This document shows, piece by piece, positions 22,666 to 32,725 of a DNA stretch of 40,274 bases. Origin of the DNA: Clostridiales bacterium. GTDB lineage: Bacteria > Bacillota > Clostridia > Christensenellales > DUVY01. Every line of letters begins with the position of its first letter. The first letter of the stretch is position 1. The notes below the pieces were generated by a model, which made no database searches, had not been told where the DNA came from, and saw nothing but the letters and a program-made list of their open reading frames with translations. A program made the translations under genes and the position numbers. The stretch is from NCBI GenBank assembly GCA_012840805.1, contig DUVY01000021.1, forward strand, positions 1 to 40,274, given 5' to 3'.

Positions 22666-22683
22666 TATCTTTATAATGTATAA

Positions 22684-22779
22684 AATTTGGGGATTGGGAA
22701 ATAATCAAATTGCTCATCATTTTCCCCCTTATAATATGCAATAAGGACAGCTCTATTTTTCCTGTTGGCTGTCCTTTTT
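22684..22779 (+). ncRNA. Putative C-rich small RNA, copy A
   Basis: Proposed small RNA of about 95 nt between queT and the 3' end of xylA. A TATAAT at 22672-22677 could start it (its -35 is poor), or it may be cut from the queT 3' UTR. It contains a 35-nt block (22703-22737) with core CATCATTTTCCCCCTTAT, which is 33/35 identical to a block in copy B (32630-32664, other strand). Five nt later comes a terminator hairpin whose sequence is unrelated to the one in copy B. The core is the reverse complement of a Shine-Dalgarno plus AUG. In this copy GGGAAA at about 22696-22701 could fold onto the C-rich core. Confidence 0.5.
22743..22779 (+). terminator. Terminator after queT / small RNA A
   Basis: Perfect 9-bp stem AAGGACAGC (22743-22751) with GCTGTCCTT (22768-22776), then T residues on plus. 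On the minus strand no T tract follows, so it is a poor terminator for xylA. Confidence 0.8.
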
Positions 22780-22809: not shown

Positions 22810-24123
22810 TTATGAAAACAGTATTTGGTTGATAATACTCTCAAGATATTCTTGACTGCCGCTTTCTACTTTGATTTCGTCCAAAGTCGAGGCGATTTCG
22901 GCAAGTTCTTTTAAGTTGGTTTTGCCTTCAACTATCTTTTTGCCTATGCCTGTTGAGTAACTTTGATATCTTTGGACGACAAAACTATCTATGCGCCCGT
23001 CCGATATAATTTTGTCCGCGGCAATAAGCCCTATCGCGAAAGCGTCCATACCCGCTATATGAGAGATAAATATATCTTTGAATGTGTTGGAGCTTCTGCG
23101 CGCCTTCGCGTCAAAGTTAAGACCGCCTTTGGTAAACCCGCCAGCTGATAGCACTTCATACATACAAAGAGTGGTTTGATATACATCGGTGGGGAATTGG
23201 TCCGTATCCCAGCCTAGCAAAGTATCGCCTTGATTGGCGTCAATTGAGCCGAACATATTATTATCTTTAGCTACTCTTAACTCGTGCTGAAAAGTGTGTC
23301 CCGCCAAAGTCGCGTGATTGGCTTCTATGTTTAGCTTAAAATATTGGTCAAGTTCGTAAGATTTCAAAAAACCTATGACGGTAGCGGCGTCAAAATCATA
23401 TTGATGTTTTGTAGGCTCTTTGGGCTTGGGTTCTATATAAAAATCGCCCTCAAAACCTATACTCTTGGCATAATCTACTGACATTTTCAAAAACCTAGCC
23501 AAATTGTCAAGCTCTAGTTTCATATCGGTGTTGAGCAATGTTTCGTAGCCTTCCCTGCCGCCCCAAAAGACATAACCTTCGCCCGAAAGTTCCAAAGTGG
23601 CGTCTAGCGCCTCTTTGACTTGGGCGGCGGCGTAACAAAACACATCGGCCGAAGGCGAAGTCGCCGCGCCGTTCATATATCGCGGATGCTCAAACAGCTT
23701 CGCTGTGCCCCATAATAATTTTTTGTTATAATCTTGCTGAAGCTGTTTTAGAAGCTTGACTATTTCTTTTAGGTTTTTGTTGGTTTGGACTAAGGTGTCG
23801 CCCTCGGGCGCTACATCGCGGTCGTGAAAGCAATAAAAATCAATATCTAATTTATCCAAAATCTCAAACGCGGCGTAAGCTTTTAGTTTGGCTGTTTCCA
23901 TTGGGTTAGCGCCGCCAAAACTTTTGTCCATTGAAGCCGCGCCAAACATATCTATGCCTTCGCCGCACAGCGTATGCCAATAGCTCATAGCGAACCTTAG
24001 ATGCTCGCGCATTGTTTTGCCCCTTATTACTCTGTCGGGCTCGTAAAACTTAAAACTCAAAGGGTTTTTGCTGTCTTTGCCCTCGTATTTGATTTTGGGG
24101 ATGTCTTTAAAAAATTCTCTCAT
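22810..24123 (-). CDS. xylA: Xylose isomerase
   Basis: 437-residue metal-dependent TIM-barrel isomerase converting D-xylose to D-xylulose, class II length. Catalytic His100 and Asp103 lie in [11 protein letters not shown]; the metal-site segments FWGGREGYE and [14 protein letters not shown] are intact. The ATG at 24123 is preferred over an in-frame TTG at 24132, because GAGG is spaced correctly only for the ATG. It begins one base past the end of xylB. Last gene of the sugar operon; it supplies the pathway with xylulose from xylose freed by the GH31 enzyme. Confidence 0.97.
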
Positions 24124-24124
24124 A

Positions 24125-25648
24125 TCAACCAACCTCGCTTAAAATTTTGAATCTATATTTTAAATCATCATACAAAGCTTTGTAAATTTTATAATATTGA
24201 TCGTATATTTGGGAAGCTGCCATGTCAGGGGTCGTTTTGTTTTCAAGTTTTAATATGTTTTCGCAGGCGGTTTTTACATCTTTATATAACCCCGTTCCTA
24301 TACCTGACAAAATGGCAGCGCCCAAACATCCGCCTGCGTCTTGCTGCAAGGTATAAACATCGCATTTGAAATTGTCGGCAAGCATTTTCCGCCAATACGG
24401 GCTTTTAGCTCCGCCGCCGCCCGCTACAATGTATTCGGGCTCAATGCCCATATCAATCAATATATTAAGACAATCTCTTTGGCTGTAAGTTATGCCTTCT
24501 ATGACCGCCCGCGCAAAATGCGCCTTGGTGTGTATAGCGCTTATGCCAAAAAATACGCCGCGCGCGTTTGTGTCCAGATGCGGAGTGCGCTCGCCCATTA
24601 GATAAGGCAAGAAGATAAGATTGTCCGCGCCTATTTTGAGTTTTTGGACTTGATCCATAATAATGTCGTATATATTAAGCTTTTTATCAGCGGCCTGCTT
24701 TGCCTCGGTTTGATAAAAATTATCCTTAAACCATTTTAGGCTCAATCCCGCGCCTTGCGTCACGCCCATAACATGCCATTGCCCTTCCACAGCGTGACAA
24801 AAAGTATGCACTCTGCCTAACTTGTCAATCAACGGCTCTTGGGTATGGGCAAACACCACGCCGCTAGAGCCCAAAGTGTCCGACACTCTGCCTTTATCTA
24901 TAATCCCGTTGCCCACGGCGCTTGCCGCCTGATCGCCCGCTCCGCCCGCCACAGGCGTGCCTTTACATAACCCTGTCTCTTCTGCCGCTTGGGCGTTAAC
25001 ATAACCGCTTATATACGAGCTTTCATATACTTCGGGCAAAATTTTGGTATCAATCCCTAAAATTTCGCAAAGTTCGCCCGACCATGTTCTTTTGGGCACA
25101 TCCAAAAGCTGCATGCCGCTGGCGTCGCTCACTTCTGTCGCCAAAACGCCCGTTAGTTTGAATCTGATATAGTCTTTGGGTAATAATATATGAGCGCATT
25201 GTTTATAAATATCGGGCTCGTTGTCTTTGACCCATAATAATTTTGCCGCCGTGAACGCGGGCATCGCGGGATTTGCCGTAATTTCTATAATTTTGTTTCC
25301 GCATTTTTCGGCTATTTTTTTGGCTTGCAAGTCGCTTCTGCCATCGCACCAAATGATAGAATTTCTTAACAGGTTTTTTGAGCTGTCCAGCATCACAAGC
25401 CCGTGCATCTGACCCGAAAGCCCGATGCCAGCGATATCTTGCGGATTTATCTTGCTTTGGTTAAGGACATCTTTTATGCCCAAAACGGTCGCCTTCCACC
25501 ATTGGAGCGGGTCTTGTTCCGCCCAGCCGTTTTTGGGCTGTATCAGCTCATATCCAAATATTGACGAAGCCACAATTCCGCCAAATTGGTCAAACAAAAC
25601 GGTCTTCGTGCCGCTTGTGCCTATGTCAATGCCTATAAGATATTTCAT
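24125..25648 (-). CDS. xylB: Xylulokinase
   Basis: 507-residue FGGY-family kinase phosphorylating D-xylulose to xylulose 5-phosphate. The N-terminal ATP-phosphate loop is [26 protein letters not shown] and the catalytic-base segment [12 protein letters not shown] follow, and the FGGY signature region is [18 protein letters not shown]. The start (MKYLIGID) overlaps the fucosidase stop as ATGA, which rejects a 37-codon longer frame. GGGGAAAG lies upstream of the ATG. Fourth gene of the operon. Confidence 0.96.
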
Positions 25649-26943
25649 TGCTCTTTCCCCGTTTGATTTTTTAGCTCTATCTTTAAGACAGTTATATCCT
25701 TGTATTTGGACGGCGCTATGTCCACAAAAGTATATTGCGGATAATTTGTCGCCACCCATTCGGTCATAATATTTAGCTCGCTAAAGTCGTCAAGCATAAT
25801 AATTTTTTGGATGTCTTTTCTGTCTATTGATGGAAACAATAAAGGACCAATGGGGCGCTCGTAAATATGCGCGAATATTATATTATCTTTTTTTGTATAT
25901 CTGCCCCATTCGGGCTTGGGCAAGCCGCTGTCTGTACATCCATAAATACTTTCGCCGTAAACTTTGAGCCAACCGCCTATTTTTTGTAATATCTGTATAC
26001 ACTCTTGCGGAATATTGCCTCTGGCGTCAGGTCCGACATTAAGTATCATATTGCCGCCTTTAGAAACCGCCTCGGTCAATTTTTTTATAATCAAATCGGC
26101 GCTTTTATAATTTTTGTCCGCCGAGTTGTATCCCCAGCTTTCGTTCATTGACACGCAAATTTCCCAAGGCACATGCTCGCCCGCCTCGTTTTTGAGCGCC
26201 TGTGGCGGCATAAGCTGTTCGGGACAGGCAAAATCGCCGCTAAAAATCTCGGGGTTTTGGCTCATAATACCGCCTAAGTTTTCGCCCGAGGCGTCCAATC
26301 TGCTGTTTATTAAAATTTCGGGCTGATAATTACGAATCATCTTCACAAGCTCGCTTGCGCGCCAATACTCGCCTCTATATTGATCATAAGAAAAGTCAAG
26401 CCACATTAGGTCAATCTTGCCATAATTGCTGACAAGCTCTTTTACTTGGGCGTGCATATAGTCCAAATATTTGGAAAAATCTCTCGGCGTATCGTATTTT
26501 GGATTATCGCGCATAGGATGAAAGGGGTCTTTATATGCGGGATAATGCTCGTGACGCCAATCCAACAAAGAATAATACAGCCCTACCTTAAGCCCTTGCG
26601 CCCTGAACGCGTCTAAAAACTCTTTGACTACATCTTTTTTGAGTTTGGTATTGGTTATCTTGTAGTCTGTTAGTTTGCTGTCAAATAGACAAAAACCGTC
26701 ATGGTGTTTTGCCGTCAATACGGCGTATTTCATCCCCGCTTCTTTGGCGCATTTTGCCCAATTATGCGCGTCAAAATCAACGGGGTCAAACATCTCAAAA
26801 TATTGGTCGTAATCTTCATCAGGGATTTTTTGAATGCTTTTTATCCATTCGCCCTTTGCCGCAATGGCGTAAAGCCCCCAATGGATAAACATCCCAAATC
26901 TAAGATTTCTAAACCAAAGGCTGTTTTCAAATCTTTTACTCAT
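25645..26943 (-). CDS. Alpha-L-fucosidase, GH29
   Basis: 432-residue GH29 enzyme that removes terminal alpha-L-fucose. Typical motifs are FGMFIHWGLYAI, VLTAKHHDGFCLFDS and IDLMWLDFS, where Asp183 is the expected nucleophile. No signal peptide, so it acts in the cytoplasm on imported oligosaccharides. The ATG overlaps the GH42 stop by one base (TGATG), indicating coupling; a TTG one codon earlier is less likely. In this operon it probably unmasks galactose under a fucosyl cap. Linkage preference (1,2 or 1,3/1,4) cannot be read here. Confidence 0.93.
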   Translation of the reverse strand: MSKRFENSLWFRNLRFGMFIHWGLYAIAAKGEWIKSIQKIPDEDYDQYFEMFDPVDFDAHNWAKCAKEAGMKYAVLTAKHHDGFCLFDSKLTDYKITNTKLKKDVVKEFLDAFRAQGLKVGLYYSLLDWRHEHYPAYKDPFHPMRDNPKYDTPRDFSKYLDYMHAQVKELVSNYGKIDLMWLDFSYDQYRGEYWRASELVKMIRNYQPEILINSRLDASGENLGGIMSQNPEIFSGDFACPEQLMPPQALKNEAGEHVPWEICVSMNESWGYNSADKNYKSADLIIKKLTEAVSKGGNMILNVGPDARGNIPQECIQILQKIGGWLKVYGESIYGCTDSGLPKPEWGRYTKKDNIIFAHIYERPIGPLLFPSIDRKDIQKIIMLDDFSELNIMTEWVATNYPQYTFVDIAPSKYKDITVLKIELKNQTGKEQ

Positions 26944-28943
26944 CAATCAATCTTCTCCAAACACCTAAAGCTGTATGGTTCTATCTCAATTACCCCCGAT
27001 AGTTTGGTTGATGTTTCAACATCCAAATATTGTCCGTCTAGTTCTACCCAGCCTTTTTCGTAGAATAATTCAATTACGCAATAGCCTATTTTGTCGCCGT
27101 TTCTTCTTTTGATTGCCAATACATTGGAACTTGTCTTTAGCTTAGGCGCGCAATCGGCTTTTTTTAGATAGGTTTTTATTAGCGCTAATAATCGCTCTTG
27201 CTCGGGCATCGCGCCCATTACGACTATTTCGCCTTTTCCTACCTTGCAACCGACTATGGCGGCTTTTTGGTCTATTGACGGGCTCGGCGAATTATACCTA
27301 GCGATAACTTTGTGCTCGGGCTTGGTCAAAAAGACATCGTTCCATATGGTCGTTTTGCTCAATATCCCGTCTTCAAACTCAATGGTATTATTCAAACAAG
27401 TGGACGGAATTTGATAAATATTTTGTATGCCTGTTAAGTCTTCAATAAACCCGAATACCGAATTTCTATACTTCGCGTAATAGCGGTTGCGTATGTCGGT
27501 CAGCGGTCCTGCTATCCAGATCCCGCCTTGGTTAACCCATTCTATAAGCCTAGCGGCAAAATCCCCTTCTTCTATTGATATCAAAAATGGCGAATACAAA
27601 ACTTTGATGCCGTCTAAAGAATTATTGGGATTATGAACGCTCGGCGCTATGCCGTCTTTTAACAAAGGATAATAACAATTTTTAATAATATTTTCGGTAT
27701 AGTGAAATCCCGCTACTACTTTTTGACCTTCAAAGATATTATAGGCGTTGCTTGAAAAGCTCATAGCAAACTCCGCTTTGTCAAGCTCAAACTCGGTCAA
27801 AAATTGTTGGCACTTTTCCAATGTTTGAGCCGCTTGGACGGTTTCGTCAAAAACATGAACGGGCTTGCCTTGCGATGTTATGACCGAAGAATGCATAAGC
27901 TCGGGTCCCGCGTAATGCGCCCTAAACAGCCAATACAAATTCATCTCGCCCCTAAAAGCAAAAGGAATCAAAGTGTTTATATAATTATAACCAATGGGGT
28001 AAAGACTTGGATTGACGCTGTTCGCGCCGTTCGCGGTGGTGGCTGTTTCGGTGTTCCAAAACGGTCTGTCTTTTAGTCGGGACATATAATCCATCCAAAA
28101 CGCGCACTCATAAAAATTTTCCTTAGAGTGATAATGATTAATCATTACCACATCTAGATTTTGATTGGTTATATAATGGTCCTGACTTACAAAGGTCATC
28201 ATATCCGTTCCGATTGGAACTTTTATGCCGTTTTCTCTTAAGATGTCGGCTTGGCGGGATATAAAATTGGCGTTGCTACGCATTTGAAAATCTATGTATT
28301 CGGTAGTAAAAGCCGGATGAGAGCCCCAATCTTTGATTTTGGGATACTCTATTTGGTCAAAGGCGCTATATTCTATGCTCCAAATTCTAAGCGCCATTTG
28401 TTTATTGAGATTGTCTATTGTTTTGTATTTTTTCTTAAGATGCTTGTAAAACTCCTTCATACAAAAATCGCAATGACAGCCTTGAAGCCAGGGATAGATT
28501 TCGTTATCTATTTGCCAGCCTATGACAGCCTCGTGGTCTTTAAAGTACTGCGCCATCTTAGATACTATCTTTTGGACATAGCTATTAAAGACCGGGCTGT
28601 TGGGGCAGCCGTGTCCGCGCCCGCCGTGAACAGCGTATGAGCCATTGTCATCGCGCCTTAAAATTTCGGGGTGTTTTTTAGTAAGCCATATAGGAGGAGT
28701 ATTGGAAGGAGTGCAAAGAATGCTGTAAATGCCGTTTTGATACAGCTTGTCAACTACTTTTTTGAGCCATTTAAAATTATATTGTCCCTCTTGAGGTTCA
28801 AATACGCTCCACGCGAATTCGCCCATCCGCATAACATTAAGACGGGCTTTTTTCATATATTCTATGTCTTCGTCTATGGTTTCAAAATAATATACCTCAG
28901 GATAATACGCCGCTCCTAAATATAAATTTTTTTTTGACATCAT
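26943..28943 (-). CDS. Beta-galactosidase, GH42
   Basis: 666-residue GH42 enzyme. The acid/base is Glu148 (IGWQIDNE) and the nucleophile Glu299 (FWNTETA). The zinc site of the family is complete: Cys113, Cys156, Cys158 and Cys161. The trimerisation/glutamine-amidotransferase-like domain (about 385-590) and a C-terminal beta domain follow. No signal peptide. AAGAGAG precedes the tandem ATGATG. In context it would release beta-linked galactose exposed by the fucosidase; plant arabinogalactan or milk-type substrates are alternatives. Confidence 0.94.
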   Translation of the reverse strand: MMSKKNLYLGAAYYPEVYYFETIDEDIEYMKKARLNVMRMGEFAWSVFEPQEGQYNFKWLKKVVDKLYQNGIYSILCTPSNTPPIWLTKKHPEILRRDDNGSYAVHGGRGHGCPNSPVFNSYVQKIVSKMAQYFKDHEAVIGWQIDNEIYPWLQGCHCDFCMKEFYKHLKKKYKTIDNLNKQMALRIWSIEYSAFDQIEYPKIKDWGSHPAFTTEYIDFQMRSNANFISRQADILRENGIKVPIGTDMMTFVSQDHYITNQNLDVVMINHYHSKENFYECAFWMDYMSRLKDRPFWNTETATTANGANSVNPSLYPIGYNYINTLIPFAFRGEMNLYWLFRAHYAGPELMHSSVITSQGKPVHVFDETVQAAQTLEKCQQFLTEFELDKAEFAMSFSSNAYNIFEGQKVVAGFHYTENIIKNCYYPLLKDGIAPSVHNPNNSLDGIKVLYSPFLISIEEGDFAARLIEWVNQGGIWIAGPLTDIRNRYYAKYRNSVFGFIEDLTGIQNIYQIPSTCLNNTIEFEDGILSKTTIWNDVFLTKPEHKVIARYNSPSPSIDQKAAIVGCKVGKGEIVVMGAMPEQERLLALIKTYLKKADCAPKLKTSSNVLAIKRRNGDKIGYCVIELFYEKGWVELDGQYLDVETSTKLSGVIEIEPYSFRCLEKID

Positions 28944-28996
28944 TTCTCTCTTAATCTATTGTAGCAGATTGTTTTGGTTTTGTAAATAGCGTTTTT

Positions 28997-31288
28997 TTAT
29001 TTTAATGAAACCGTTATGTTGTTTGATTCTGCCTCAAGCATCAAGCCGCGTTCTGTGACTTTGGCTTGCGCGCCTTGAATTTCGGCGTTTTTTATCCCGT
29101 TAAGAAGTATATATTTTACTTCGCCTTGAGTTATTATGTTGATAACATCTTGTTCTTTAGTCGCGTTTACTTTGGCTTGTCTTTTTTGGTCATAAGTATT
29201 AACAACGCACTCAGCGCGGGATTGAAGATTAAATATCTCATATACCGTATCGGCGATATAATCGTAATCAGGGCGGTCATTGACGCTTCCTTTGGGAATA
29301 ATGCTGTCGGAACGAACATACATAGGCAGCGAGAAAAAGTCATATTGCTTTTTGTGCCATCTGCCGCCTTGAAGTTTTTCGCCGCTTAGATAATGAACCC
29401 ATTCGCCCTCGGGCAAATAAAACTCGCACCAATTGTCTTTGGATAGCACGGGCGCGACCAATATATCTTTTCCAAACATATACTGTCTGTCTAGGTATTT
29501 GCAGGTGGGCTCGTCAAACTCAAAAAACATCGGTCGCATAATAGGCGTGCCTTTTTGGTGCGCTGTTATAGACGCTTGATATATGTAAGGCATTAACGAG
29601 CATTTTAGATTGGTAAAAAACCTTAAAACATCGCAGGCTTCCTCGTCATAGACCCAAGGCACTCTATACGCGCCCGAACCGTGCAGTCTGCTGTGCGACG
29701 ACAAAAGCCCAAAGGCGACCCACCTTTTGTATATATCGGGCGGCGAATTGTTTTCGAATCCGCCTATATCGTGGCTCCAATAACCAAAACCGCTACACAT
29801 CAAGGACAGTCCGCCCCTTAGGCTTTCCGCCATAGAATTGTATGTGGAATTACAATCTCCGCCCCAATGAACAGGAAACTTTTGTCCGCCCGCGCAAGCG
29901 CTTCTGGCAAATAATATCGCCTCGTTTATGCCCTTTTTTCTTTGCAACAACTCAAAGACGCAGGCGTTATATAAATAAGTGTAATAATTGTGCATTGCCC
30001 TAGGGTCAGAGCCGTCATAATAAACCGCGTCTTCGGGGATTTTTTCGCCAAAATCGGTCTTAAAAGAGTCCACGCCCATATCTATTAATTTTTCAAGTTT
30101 GTCCGAATACCATTGGCGCGCTTGGGGATTGGTAAAGTCCACTATCGCCATGCCCGCCTGCCATTCATCGCGTTGGTATATCCGCCCGTCCGCGCGCTTT
30201 AAGAAGTAGCCGTTTTTTAGGCCTTCTTCAAACATCTGCGTTTTTTGGGCAATATATGGATTAATCCAAACGCATATTTTTAGACCTTTTTTGCGAAGCC
30301 TTTTTAGCATGCCTTCTGGGTCGGGGAACGAATCCTTATCCCATACCAAGCTGGTCCATTCAAATTCCTTCATCCAAAAACAATCAAAATGAAAAGTGCT
30401 CAAAGGAATCTGGCGCCTTTGCATTTCGTCTATAAAGAAATTAACAGTTTTTTCGTCGTAATTGGTGGTAAACGAAGTTGACAGCCAAAGCCCATACGAC
30501 CAAGGCGGCAATAACGCGGGTCTGCCGGTTAATTGGGTGTATTTGTCCAAAATATCAGCGGGCGTTTTGCCGTATATGATTACATACTCCAGCTCTTCGT
30601 CAGCCACGGAAAATTGGGTTTCCTCTACCTTTTCGCTTCCTATCTCAAACGAAACAAGGTCGGGCGTGTTGACAAAAATCCCATAGCCCTTGCTACTCAT
30701 AAAAAAAGGCACATTTTTGTAAGACATCTCGCTTGCCGTTCCGCCGTCCACATTCCATATATCTATGGACTGGCCGTTCTTGATAAAGGGCGTAAATCTC
30801 TCGCCGCCGCCATAGATGCATTCGCCCACGTCAAGCTCTAAGCCATTGACCAAGTATCTGGTTTGTGTGTGTTTGTCCGTCATTATTGACAAAGATTTGT
30901 CCAAATAACCCGTAAGCTTTTTATCGCCCGCGAAAAACGATATATTAAACGGCTTTTTTTGGGCGCGCATCGTAAGGTTGCCAGAGGTCAACTCAGCGCC
31001 GCTTTCGGTTATGCGGATGTCTATATTTTTGCGTTCCCATTCAAATTTTTTGATATTTCTTTTGCCGCCTTTGTGACCGATTAGCCTTATGCTTATACAA
31101 TCTTGAAGCGGAGAATACGCTTCTATAGTCAAAAGACCCAAATTAAGCGTATGATAACGAAATTCAATGTTTCTAAACGGACAATACATAGTCAGCAAGT
31201 TTTGGGATTGTCTTATATCCCTGATTTCTCGCGCGTACTCAGCATTAAATTTTTCTTTTACTGTCCAAAGCCCTTCCGTAAATTTCAT
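28997..31288 (-). CDS. yicI: Alpha-xylosidase, GH31 (YicI-like)
   Basis: 763-residue GH31 enzyme, very like E. coli YicI throughout. The nucleophile is Asp412 in FKTDFGEKIPED and the acid/base Asp478 in FPVHWGGDCNS; YicI uses the equivalents Asp416 and Asp482. The YicI-type insert signature YGGGERFTPFIKNGQ and KSLLSSHSRLHG-like LLSSHSRLHGSGAYRVPW are conserved. It should cleave alpha-1,6-xylose from isoprimeverose-type ends of xyloglucan oligosaccharides. Cytoplasmic (no signal peptide). First gene of the operon, with AAGGGG before the ATG and a terminator-like hairpin in its leader. Confidence 0.95.
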   Translation of the reverse strand: MKFTEGLWTVKEKFNAEYAREIRDIRQSQNLLTMYCPFRNIEFRYHTLNLGLLTIEAYSPLQDCISIRLIGHKGGKRNIKKFEWERKNIDIRITESGAELTSGNLTMRAQKKPFNISFFAGDKKLTGYLDKSLSIMTDKHTQTRYLVNGLELDVGECIYGGGERFTPFIKNGQSIDIWNVDGGTASEMSYKNVPFFMSSKGYGIFVNTPDLVSFEIGSEKVEETQFSVADEELEYVIIYGKTPADILDKYTQLTGRPALLPPWSYGLWLSTSFTTNYDEKTVNFFIDEMQRRQIPLSTFHFDCFWMKEFEWTSLVWDKDSFPDPEGMLKRLRKKGLKICVWINPYIAQKTQMFEEGLKNGYFLKRADGRIYQRDEWQAGMAIVDFTNPQARQWYSDKLEKLIDMGVDSFKTDFGEKIPEDAVYYDGSDPRAMHNYYTYLYNACVFELLQRKKGINEAILFARSACAGGQKFPVHWGGDCNSTYNSMAESLRGGLSLMCSGFGYWSHDIGGFENNSPPDIYKRWVAFGLLSSHSRLHGSGAYRVPWVYDEEACDVLRFFTNLKCSLMPYIYQASITAHQKGTPIMRPMFFEFDEPTCKYLDRQYMFGKDILVAPVLSKDNWCEFYLPEGEWVHYLSGEKLQGGRWHKKQYDFFSLPMYVRSDSIIPKGSVNDRPDYDYIADTVYEIFNLQSRAECVVNTYDQKRQAKVNATKEQDVINIITQGEVKYILLNGIKNAEIQGAQAKVTERGLMLEAESNNITVSLK

Positions 31289-31316: not shown

Positions 31317-31357
31317 AAAAAAGGCTAAGGGGCAAGAAATTTGCCCTAAGCCTTTTT
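31317..31357 (-). terminator. Leader terminator (attenuator) before GH31 operon
   Basis: On the minus strand a 12-bp stem (GGCTTAGGGCAA with TTGCCCCTTAGCC, one bulge) is followed by six T residues and lies only about 15 nt upstream of the GH31 Shine-Dalgarno sequence. There is no minus-strand gene upstream before degV, so it cannot serve a preceding gene. The upstream segment 31457-31466 (AAAAGGCTAA in the leader) is fully complementary to its 3' half. The plus strand also ends in T residues. Confidence 0.7.
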
Positions 31358-31535: not shown

Positions 31536-31564
31536 ATATTGTTACAAAAATTATCTATTGACAA
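31536..31564 (-). promoter_or_regulatory. Putative promoter of the sugar operon
   Basis: Minus strand TTGTCA (31559-31564) and CAATAT (31536-31541), spacer 17 bp. The poor -10 fits a promoter needing an activator. Initiation near 31529 would give a leader of about 240 nt. Confidence 0.4.
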
Positions 31565-31587
31565 AACAATTTAAAATATATTAATAT
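31558..31587 (+). promoter_or_regulatory. Putative promoter of araC
   Basis: TTGACA (31558-31563) is a perfect -35; TAATAT (31582-31587) at 18 bp is a fair -10. Its -35 box overlaps that of the divergent operon promoter almost exactly. Confidence 0.5.
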
Positions 31588-31708
31588 TGTTATATAAAGA
31601 TTATAAAGTCTGTTTGCCAAAAAATATATGTCAATTATTTTAAAGTTAAGCCAAAAATTGCTCTTCAAAACTGATTAACAGATGTTTTGGTTTTTGTGGG
31701 AGGGGAAA

Positions 31709-32545
31709 ATGAAAGAAGAAATGGTCAATTCTATGTATGAGTTATTAAGAGATAGGGGTAACGACCTTTATATACAGTATGCCGATTTTGATCATTGCGA
31801 TGTGCATTTTCATCAATGTATAGAGCTTGCTTTGCTGGAAGCAGGCGAGATGGTAATTACCGTCAACGGCAAAAGCGAAGCGTTTAGAAGAGGGCAAAAG
31901 GGTCTGGCTTTTATCGCCAGTTATGATGTGCACCATATCTTGCGTTCTGATGACAGTAAAATTATTGTCTGCATTATTCCGGCTTTCTTTTTGAAAGGTT
32001 TTTTTGAAGCGGCGGACGAACTCAATTATCAAAGCTGTTTTATTAAAGACCAAGAGTTTATAGATAAAATTTGGCTATTGCTCAAAGAATTGATGGAACA
32101 TAAAAAAAGCAATCTCTTGTTGGTAAAAGGCATAGTCTATACTATTTTGGGGCATTTGATTGAAAGCAAAATGCTAAAAACCGCCAATGACCCCGCGCCC
32201 AATCAATTGACCCAAAAGGTGTTGGAATATTTAAACAATAACTTCAAATCAAAAATTACATTGGACACTTTGGCGGCAGAGTTCAATTACAGCAAATATT
32301 ATTTTTCTAAGATATTTAATCAATATTTCGCGTGCAATCTTTCAACCTATGTCAATATGTTAAGAGCGACCTATGTCGCCGCTCAACTAAACGAAAACTC
32401 CGCCGAAAAAAATATAGTGGAATTGGCGTTTGATGCGGGCTTTGATAGTATGAGAACATTTTACCGTAGCTTTTATCAATTATTCAAAACAAGTCCCAAA
32501 AATTTTAAAAAGCAGATGTATTGTCAACAAAAAGCCATCAAATAG
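31709..32545 (+). CDS. AraC family transcriptional regulator
   Basis: 278 residues: an N-terminal cupin-type sensor domain (HCDVHFHQCIELALLEAGEM, His29, His33 and His35 near the pocket) and a C-terminal double helix-turn-helix (about 175-275; ITLDTLAAEFNYSKYYFSKI and IVELAFDAGFDSMRTFYRSF). The start is set at 31709, where GGGAGGGG is spaced correctly; the ORF could begin 9 codons earlier. Divergent from the sugar operon, so it probably activates it when an oligosaccharide or sugar binds. Its ribosome binding site and start (GGGGAAAATGA, 31702-31712) are perfectly complementary to the proposed small RNAs. Confidence 0.93.
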   Translation: MKEEMVNSMYELLRDRGNDLYIQYADFDHCDVHFHQCIELALLEAGEMVITVNGKSEAFRRGQKGLAFIASYDVHHILRSDDSKIIVCIIPAFFLKGFFEAADELNYQSCFIKDQEFIDKIWLLLKELMEHKKSNLLLVKGIVYTILGHLIESKMLKTANDPAPNQLTQKVLEYLNNNFKSKITLDTLAAEFNYSKYYFSKIFNQYFACNLSTYVNMLRATYVAAQLNENSAEKNIVELAFDAGFDSMRTFYRSFYQLFKTSPKNFKKQMYCQQKAIK

Positions 32546-32589: not shown

Positions 32590-32623
32590 AAAAAAATGAA
32601 GCGGCTTAAAAATAAGCCGCTTC
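32590..32623 (-). terminator. Terminator of small RNA B
   Basis: Perfect 11-bp stem GAAGCGGCTTA (32598-32608) with TAAGCCGCTTC (32613-32623), 4-nt loop. On minus it is followed by A and then seven T residues (32596-32590); on plus there is no T tract, so it is directed at minus-strand transcripts (the small RNA and any degV read-through). Confidence 0.9.
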
Positions 32624-32690
32624 AAATATATATGATAAGGGGGAAAATGATGAGCTATTTGATTTTGTTGTCCATACCATCTAGCTTACG
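32590..32690 (-). ncRNA. Putative C-rich small RNA, copy B
   Basis: Proposed stand-alone RNA of about 100 nt between degV and the convergent araC gene. It has a perfect TTGACA-N17-TATAAT promoter 59 bp past the degV stop and a strong terminator. The block 32630-32664 (core CATCATTTTCCCCCTTAT) is 33/35 identical to copy A at 22703-22737, while promoter-proximal and hairpin sequences differ, suggesting selection on the core. The core looks like an unpaired antisense to Shine-Dalgarno plus AUG, as in C-rich regulatory RNAs of Firmicutes (RsaE/RoxS, csRNAs). A competing reading, an 18-codon peptide on plus from 32648, is less likely. Confidence 0.65.
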
Positions 32691-32725
32691 AATTGAATTA
32701 TAATATCAATTTAATTTCTTGTCAA
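32691..32725 (-). promoter_or_regulatory. Consensus promoter of small RNA B with palindrome
   Basis: Minus strand TTGACA (32720-32725), 17-bp spacer, TATAAT (32697-32702): perfect sigma-A consensus. An inverted repeat AATTGA (32691-32696) / TCAATT (32706-32711) brackets the -10 box and could be a repressor site. Confidence 0.8.

Follow-up and report, generated by a model that had tools for sequence, protein, structure and literature searches.

Introduction

RsaE/RoxS of Staphylococcus and Bacillus is a conserved small RNA (sRNA) of Firmicutes with C-rich regions able to pair with Shine–Dalgarno (SD) sequences (PMC4409812). The multicopy sRNAs of the LhrC family of Listeria bind the G-rich sequence upstream of the start codon through UCCC motifs, which have been described as a hallmark of sRNAs of this type among low-GC bacteria (PMC4132741). 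The CiaRH-dependent csRNAs of Streptococcus are present as several highly similar copies per genome (PMC4132741). CsfG of endospore formers is a 136-nt sRNA with highly conserved CU-rich stretches; in Bacillus subtilis, it is located between ylbG and ylbH (PMC3574147).

The window analysed here, i.e., the whole stretch of 40,274 nucleotides from a Clostridiales bacterium, contains two small RNA genes with a common C-rich core, which a preliminary description had assigned to the C-rich anti-SD kind and regarded as repressors of the adjacent activator gene araC and, thereby, of a sugar operon. The assignment to this kind was borne out, with a core that is predicted to be exposed and is the complement of a ribosome-binding site (RBS). 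With moderate confidence, we favour the reading that both RNAs represent an apparently undescribed anti-SD sRNA that acts in trans and is distributed across the order, araC being one plausible target.

Results

The xyl locus, comprising xylA, xylB and genes for an alpha-L-fucosidase family protein, GH42 and a GH31 alpha-xylosidase (22810..31288, minus strand), and the gene of an AraC-type transcriptional regulator of 278 aa (31709..32545, plus strand; Pfam HTH_18 and HTH_AraC) are flanked by small RNAs A and B, which lie on opposite strands. Small RNA A, of about 100 nt (32590..32691, minus strand), is convergent with araC and is conserved in the sister species G003 and G004. It has a perfect promoter, TTGACA-17-TATAAT (32725-32697), a 27-nt conserved core GCTCATCATTTTCCCCCTTATCATATA (32629..32655, minus strand) and an intrinsic terminator with a 12-bp stem and a T tract (32597..32624, minus strand); as read from the alignment, the terminator stems of the own genome (G000), G003 and G004 differ in sequence and keep their pairing. 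Small RNA B (22684..22779, plus strand) carries the same core (22712..22732, plus strand) followed by the terminator AAGGACAGC ... GCTGTCCTTTTT (22743..22779, plus strand), and a −10 box TATAAT is present at 22672-22677. RNA B lacks a good −35 box and begins immediately behind queT; the position of its 5′ end is therefore uncertain, and it could alternatively be a piece of the queT mRNA. In the predicted fold of RNA B (window 22684-22732), the C-rich core is paired with its own G-rich leader, so that this RNA may be self-masked. A conserved peptide encoded over the core was rejected because the reading frames differ between RNAs A and B; the opposite-strand frames were short and not conserved.

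A search for the core CATNATTTTCCCCCTTATC with at most one mismatch gave hits in 150 of 396 genomes and 55 of 142 genera sampled from the order, compared with one genome for the reversed control. The exact 19-mer was detected in 34 of 297 genomes of the order (control 0) and, among genome contigs, in at least 119 stretches, nearly all from Clostridia records, including Borkfalkia and Pumilibacter (placed by NCBI in Christensenellales and Eubacteriales, respectively). The variable position N of CATNATTTTCCCCCTTATC was nearly always C or A among the matches listed, and the core consensus was CTCAT[C/A]ATTTTCCCCCTTATCATA. Most carriers had one copy per genome, and some had 2–6. Among the family copies, 126 of 130 carried an intrinsic terminator directly behind the core, as RNA B does; the median RNA length was 110 nt, and the median promoter score was 10.5 of 12.5. 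The mean predicted unpaired probability over the 130 copies was 0.83 for the core, 0.46 for the leader, which is often a predicted hairpin, and 0.23 for the downstream part. Promoter, core and terminator are conserved throughout the order, and on this basis the small RNA genes appear to be genuine. At the Rfam gathering score, no match was obtained in the window and only tRNA in 15 related loci; a known Rfam family was also rejected on the weak ncr1241 and LhrC scores, which were far under the cut-off. The small RNA family of this order of Clostridia is apparently previously uncatalogued.

Matches outside the order in Bacillus/Peribacillus and in genomes G499, G652 and G409 had, by eye, no promoter–core–terminator anatomy and were taken as chance. 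Genome G195 contained 14 matches on many contigs, several of them near contig ends; the sequence CATAATGTTCCCCCTTATC accounts for nine of the ten listed, and these matches look like a repeated element. It should also be noted that many family copies (loci L019-L137) have a palindrome, TGTAAANNNNTTTACA, overlapping their −35 region; RNA A does not contain this palindrome. With at most two mismatches, it was found in 21% of promoters versus 2% of shuffles, although the shuffles lose the −35 box itself. A CcpA cre site at the promoter was not found above the level of shuffles.

The RBS segment of araC, GGGGAAAATGA (31702..31712, plus strand), covers the SD end and the AUG, the ATG (31709-31711) lying inside it, and is perfectly complementary to TCATTTTCCCC, which both RNA genes contain. 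The 11-bp pairing set out in the preliminary description was thus exact in sequence and coordinates. In the window, TCATTTTCCCC occurs three times, at 22717-22727 (plus strand), at 32640-32650 (minus strand) and as its complement at araC, whereas 0.03 occurrences are expected from shuffles. A promoter-like site of araC (TTGACA, 18 nt, TAATAT; 31558..31587, plus strand) includes the stretch TTGACAAA common to the three species. The araC leader also contains an element TATATGTCAATTATTTTAA ... AAGCCAAAAATTGCT (window 31630-31672), which is kept in the three species and possibly is a regulator-binding site, whereas the sequence just before the start has diverged. Between the GH31 gene and araC lies a terminator-like hairpin, GGGGCAAGAAATTTGCCCT (window 31329-31347).

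In the 1.71-Mb genome, a 231-contig draft, GGGGAAAATG was found eight times, namely, in the two RNA genes, at araC and at five places that are not real gene starts; araC is therefore the only true gene start in the genome that carries it. The ranking of gene starts, which were called by a simple script, was performed on 40% of this genome, and the duplex energies ignore mRNA structure, with the exception of one co-fold. Among 539 starts of this sample, araC ranked fifth by RNAduplex energy (−21.3 kcal/mol) and second by the length of the contiguous match (11 nt, against 12 for the best start). The best contiguous match of the real core (12) exceeded that of composition-shuffled cores (9.95 ± 1.24), and the co-fold with the araC leader favoured binding of both RNAs (−17.7 kcal/mol for RNA A and −16.7 kcal/mol for RNA B). 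Since araC is among the best-matching starts, the comparison with the other RBSs does not refute the specificity ascribed to its match. The weaker complementarity reported for xylB, darA and GH31 is present, but these starts are unremarkable (ranks 49, 76 and 84 of 539, respectively). A match as good as that of araC is reached by about 0.4–0.9% of gene starts, which, for approximately eight local genes, gives by our own arithmetic a chance of about 3–7% of one such neighbour. In the SD-conditional control, in which CCCCC was kept and the rest of the core was shuffled, araC ranked only 98th of 539, and 4% of the CCCCC-kept shuffled cores paired with araC as well as the real core did. Consequently, the araC match is real but is mostly a G-run against a C-run.

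Both RNAs are kept with the same core in G003 and G004, whose araC orthologues have 79–80% identity. RNA A still adjoins araC in G003, while in G004 araC and the place of RNA A are on different contigs; an RNA sits just beyond xylA in both species. The araC start sequences were GGGAGGGGAAAATGA in G000, GGATGGGTTAAGATGA in G003 and AAGGGGAAAAAGATGA in G004, and the energies of their pairing with the core were −21.3, −14.2 and −22.7 kcal/mol, respectively, the strong pairing in G004 being in a different register. Among the 270 starts sampled from about 365 kb of G003, araC ranked 44th (weak) and xylB 10th. For 60 ortholog pairs of G000 and G003, the pairing energies correlated at 0.59 versus 0.39 ± 0.10 for fully shuffled cores; this excess of shared pairing is modest and partly reflects the C-run. 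By sequence, araC is thus a plausible target in its own species and in G004 and a weak one in G003. An alternative view is that the RNA is a real regulator whose C5 run meets the unusually G-rich SD of araC incidentally, with its true targets elsewhere. Both the rank of araC among the CCCCC-kept shuffles and the much weaker match in G003 agree with an incidental match, as does the few-percent chance of one such neighbour among eight genes; however, the pairing is strong in G000 and G004 despite the diverged sequence upstream of the start, and we consider this view unlikely.

The neighbours of the RNA vary across the order. The commonest gene cluster, directly upstream on the same strand (26 cases), and the second cluster behind it are, as read from the sequences and not from a family search, presumably spmB and spmA, respectively; on the same basis, we take other neighbours to be nifS, asnS and metG. 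Genes beside the RNA were not better matched than farther genes (near versus far, p = 0.07, the near ones being weaker), and neighbour genes as preferred targets were rejected, as this comparison revealed no enrichment. The claim that the flanking RNAs repress the local activator and the operon is not supported by these data: the core is spread over 55 of 142 sampled genera, adjoining unrelated genes, the genes beside it are no better matched than others, and in G003 both RNAs are kept, yet the pairing with araC is weak. A role of the pair as dedicated local regulators, repressing araC and thereby the xyl operon, would be in line with the two copies flanking the xyl locus, with the retention of RNA A next to araC in G003 and of an RNA just past xylA in both sister species, and with the position of araC near the top of the genome together with its strong pairing in G004; nevertheless, in view of the order-wide distribution of the family, we regard such a dedicated role as improbable.

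No conserved target was found for the order-wide sRNA: many carriers have AAGGGGGAAAA only at the RNA gene itself, which leaves no conserved target with a long perfect match. In G000, the one further gene start with AAGGGGGAAAA belongs to a solute-binding-protein gene (SBP_bac_8; C75, L274 and L374), which adjoins permease and arabinofuranosidase genes and, by its sequence, is a second candidate target; G003 and G004 have distant homologues of it (37–38% identity), without the match. In the own-genome sample, the starts of spoIIIAF-like and spo0A genes (L147:17205-17678 and L212:6437-7231, respectively) matched the core comparatively well. Together with the spmA-spmB-like neighbours, these matches make a link to sporulation possible, although unproven. 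As an order-wide target, spo0A was rejected, its pairing exceeding that of shuffles within the genus only. ABC permeases as a target class were likewise rejected, as the set was small (n = 12) and two of its seeds came from the top list, which makes the argument circular.

Discussion

The complement of the core reads AAGGGGG-AAAAT[G/T]-ATG-AG. Judging from its sequence, the C/A position appears to fall in the spacer, the distance from SD to AUG being normal. When 30 diverse copies were aligned (with MAFFT, in which the hairpins did not align), 19 core columns were invariant; as these copies were chosen by the exact 19-mer, the looser search with at most one mismatch is the better measure of conservation. 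An invariant core that is bound by a protein or by some other RNA (a chaperone or a sponge partner) instead of being an mRNA seed would suit this 19-column run, which looser searches left nearly unchanged, and a core longer than any recurrent mRNA match found, but it is very unlikely, given that the core reads as antisense to a full RBS and that the C/A variation falls in the spacer, as expected for an antisense to start sites.

The order-wide anti-SD sRNA favoured here would be an RNA of about 110 nt with its own sigma-A-type promoter, an often hairpin-forming leader, an unpaired core and an intrinsic terminator. Its core would represent an idealised antisense of an RBS (AAGGGGG, spacer, AUG) and would most likely block translation initiation of several mRNAs through pairing with their SD sequences. 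In the present locus, the 11 bp would cover the SD and AUG of araC, lowering the AraC-type regulator, and araC is probably one of several targets. Transcription, pairing in vivo, the direction of the effect and any link to xylose use are inferred by us. More tentatively, this sRNA might be a core riboregulator of gut Clostridia that acts on carbohydrate uptake and its regulators (araC and the solute-binding-protein gene), with targets varying by species; we hold this broader role to be possible rather than probable.

An RNA present in 55 of 142 sampled genera would provide the mostly uncultured gut Clostridia with a tractable riboregulator, and it is testable, since it is present in a strain record of Pumilibacter intestinalis. 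The locus also illustrates how a match between an sRNA and an adjacent gene, in this case araC, can be misleading as to the purpose of the sRNA.

Among the described systems, RsaE/RoxS resembles the present RNA in being a conserved, C-rich sRNA with the potential to pair with SD sequences; however, RoxS has four C-rich regions, whereas the present RNA has one C5 core and belongs to another order, and the RsaE/RoxS covariance model gave no gathering-score match in the window and 15 related loci. LhrC differs in having three UCCC sites as opposed to one core, and its model (RF00616) scored 22.7 bits against a cut-off of 110. In contrast to the csRNAs, the present RNA is mostly single-copy (2–6 copies in some genomes), with no Rfam gathering-score match. 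From CsfG it differs in its neighbours. Two features of anti-SD sRNAs are present: a free-standing RNA with its own promoter and terminator, as read from the DNA (the promoter of RNA B being weak), and a predicted unpaired C-rich seed, to which RNA B may be an exception. Both RNAs are best explained as an anti-SD sRNA whose mode of action, as suggested by resemblance, would be that of RsaE or LhrC.
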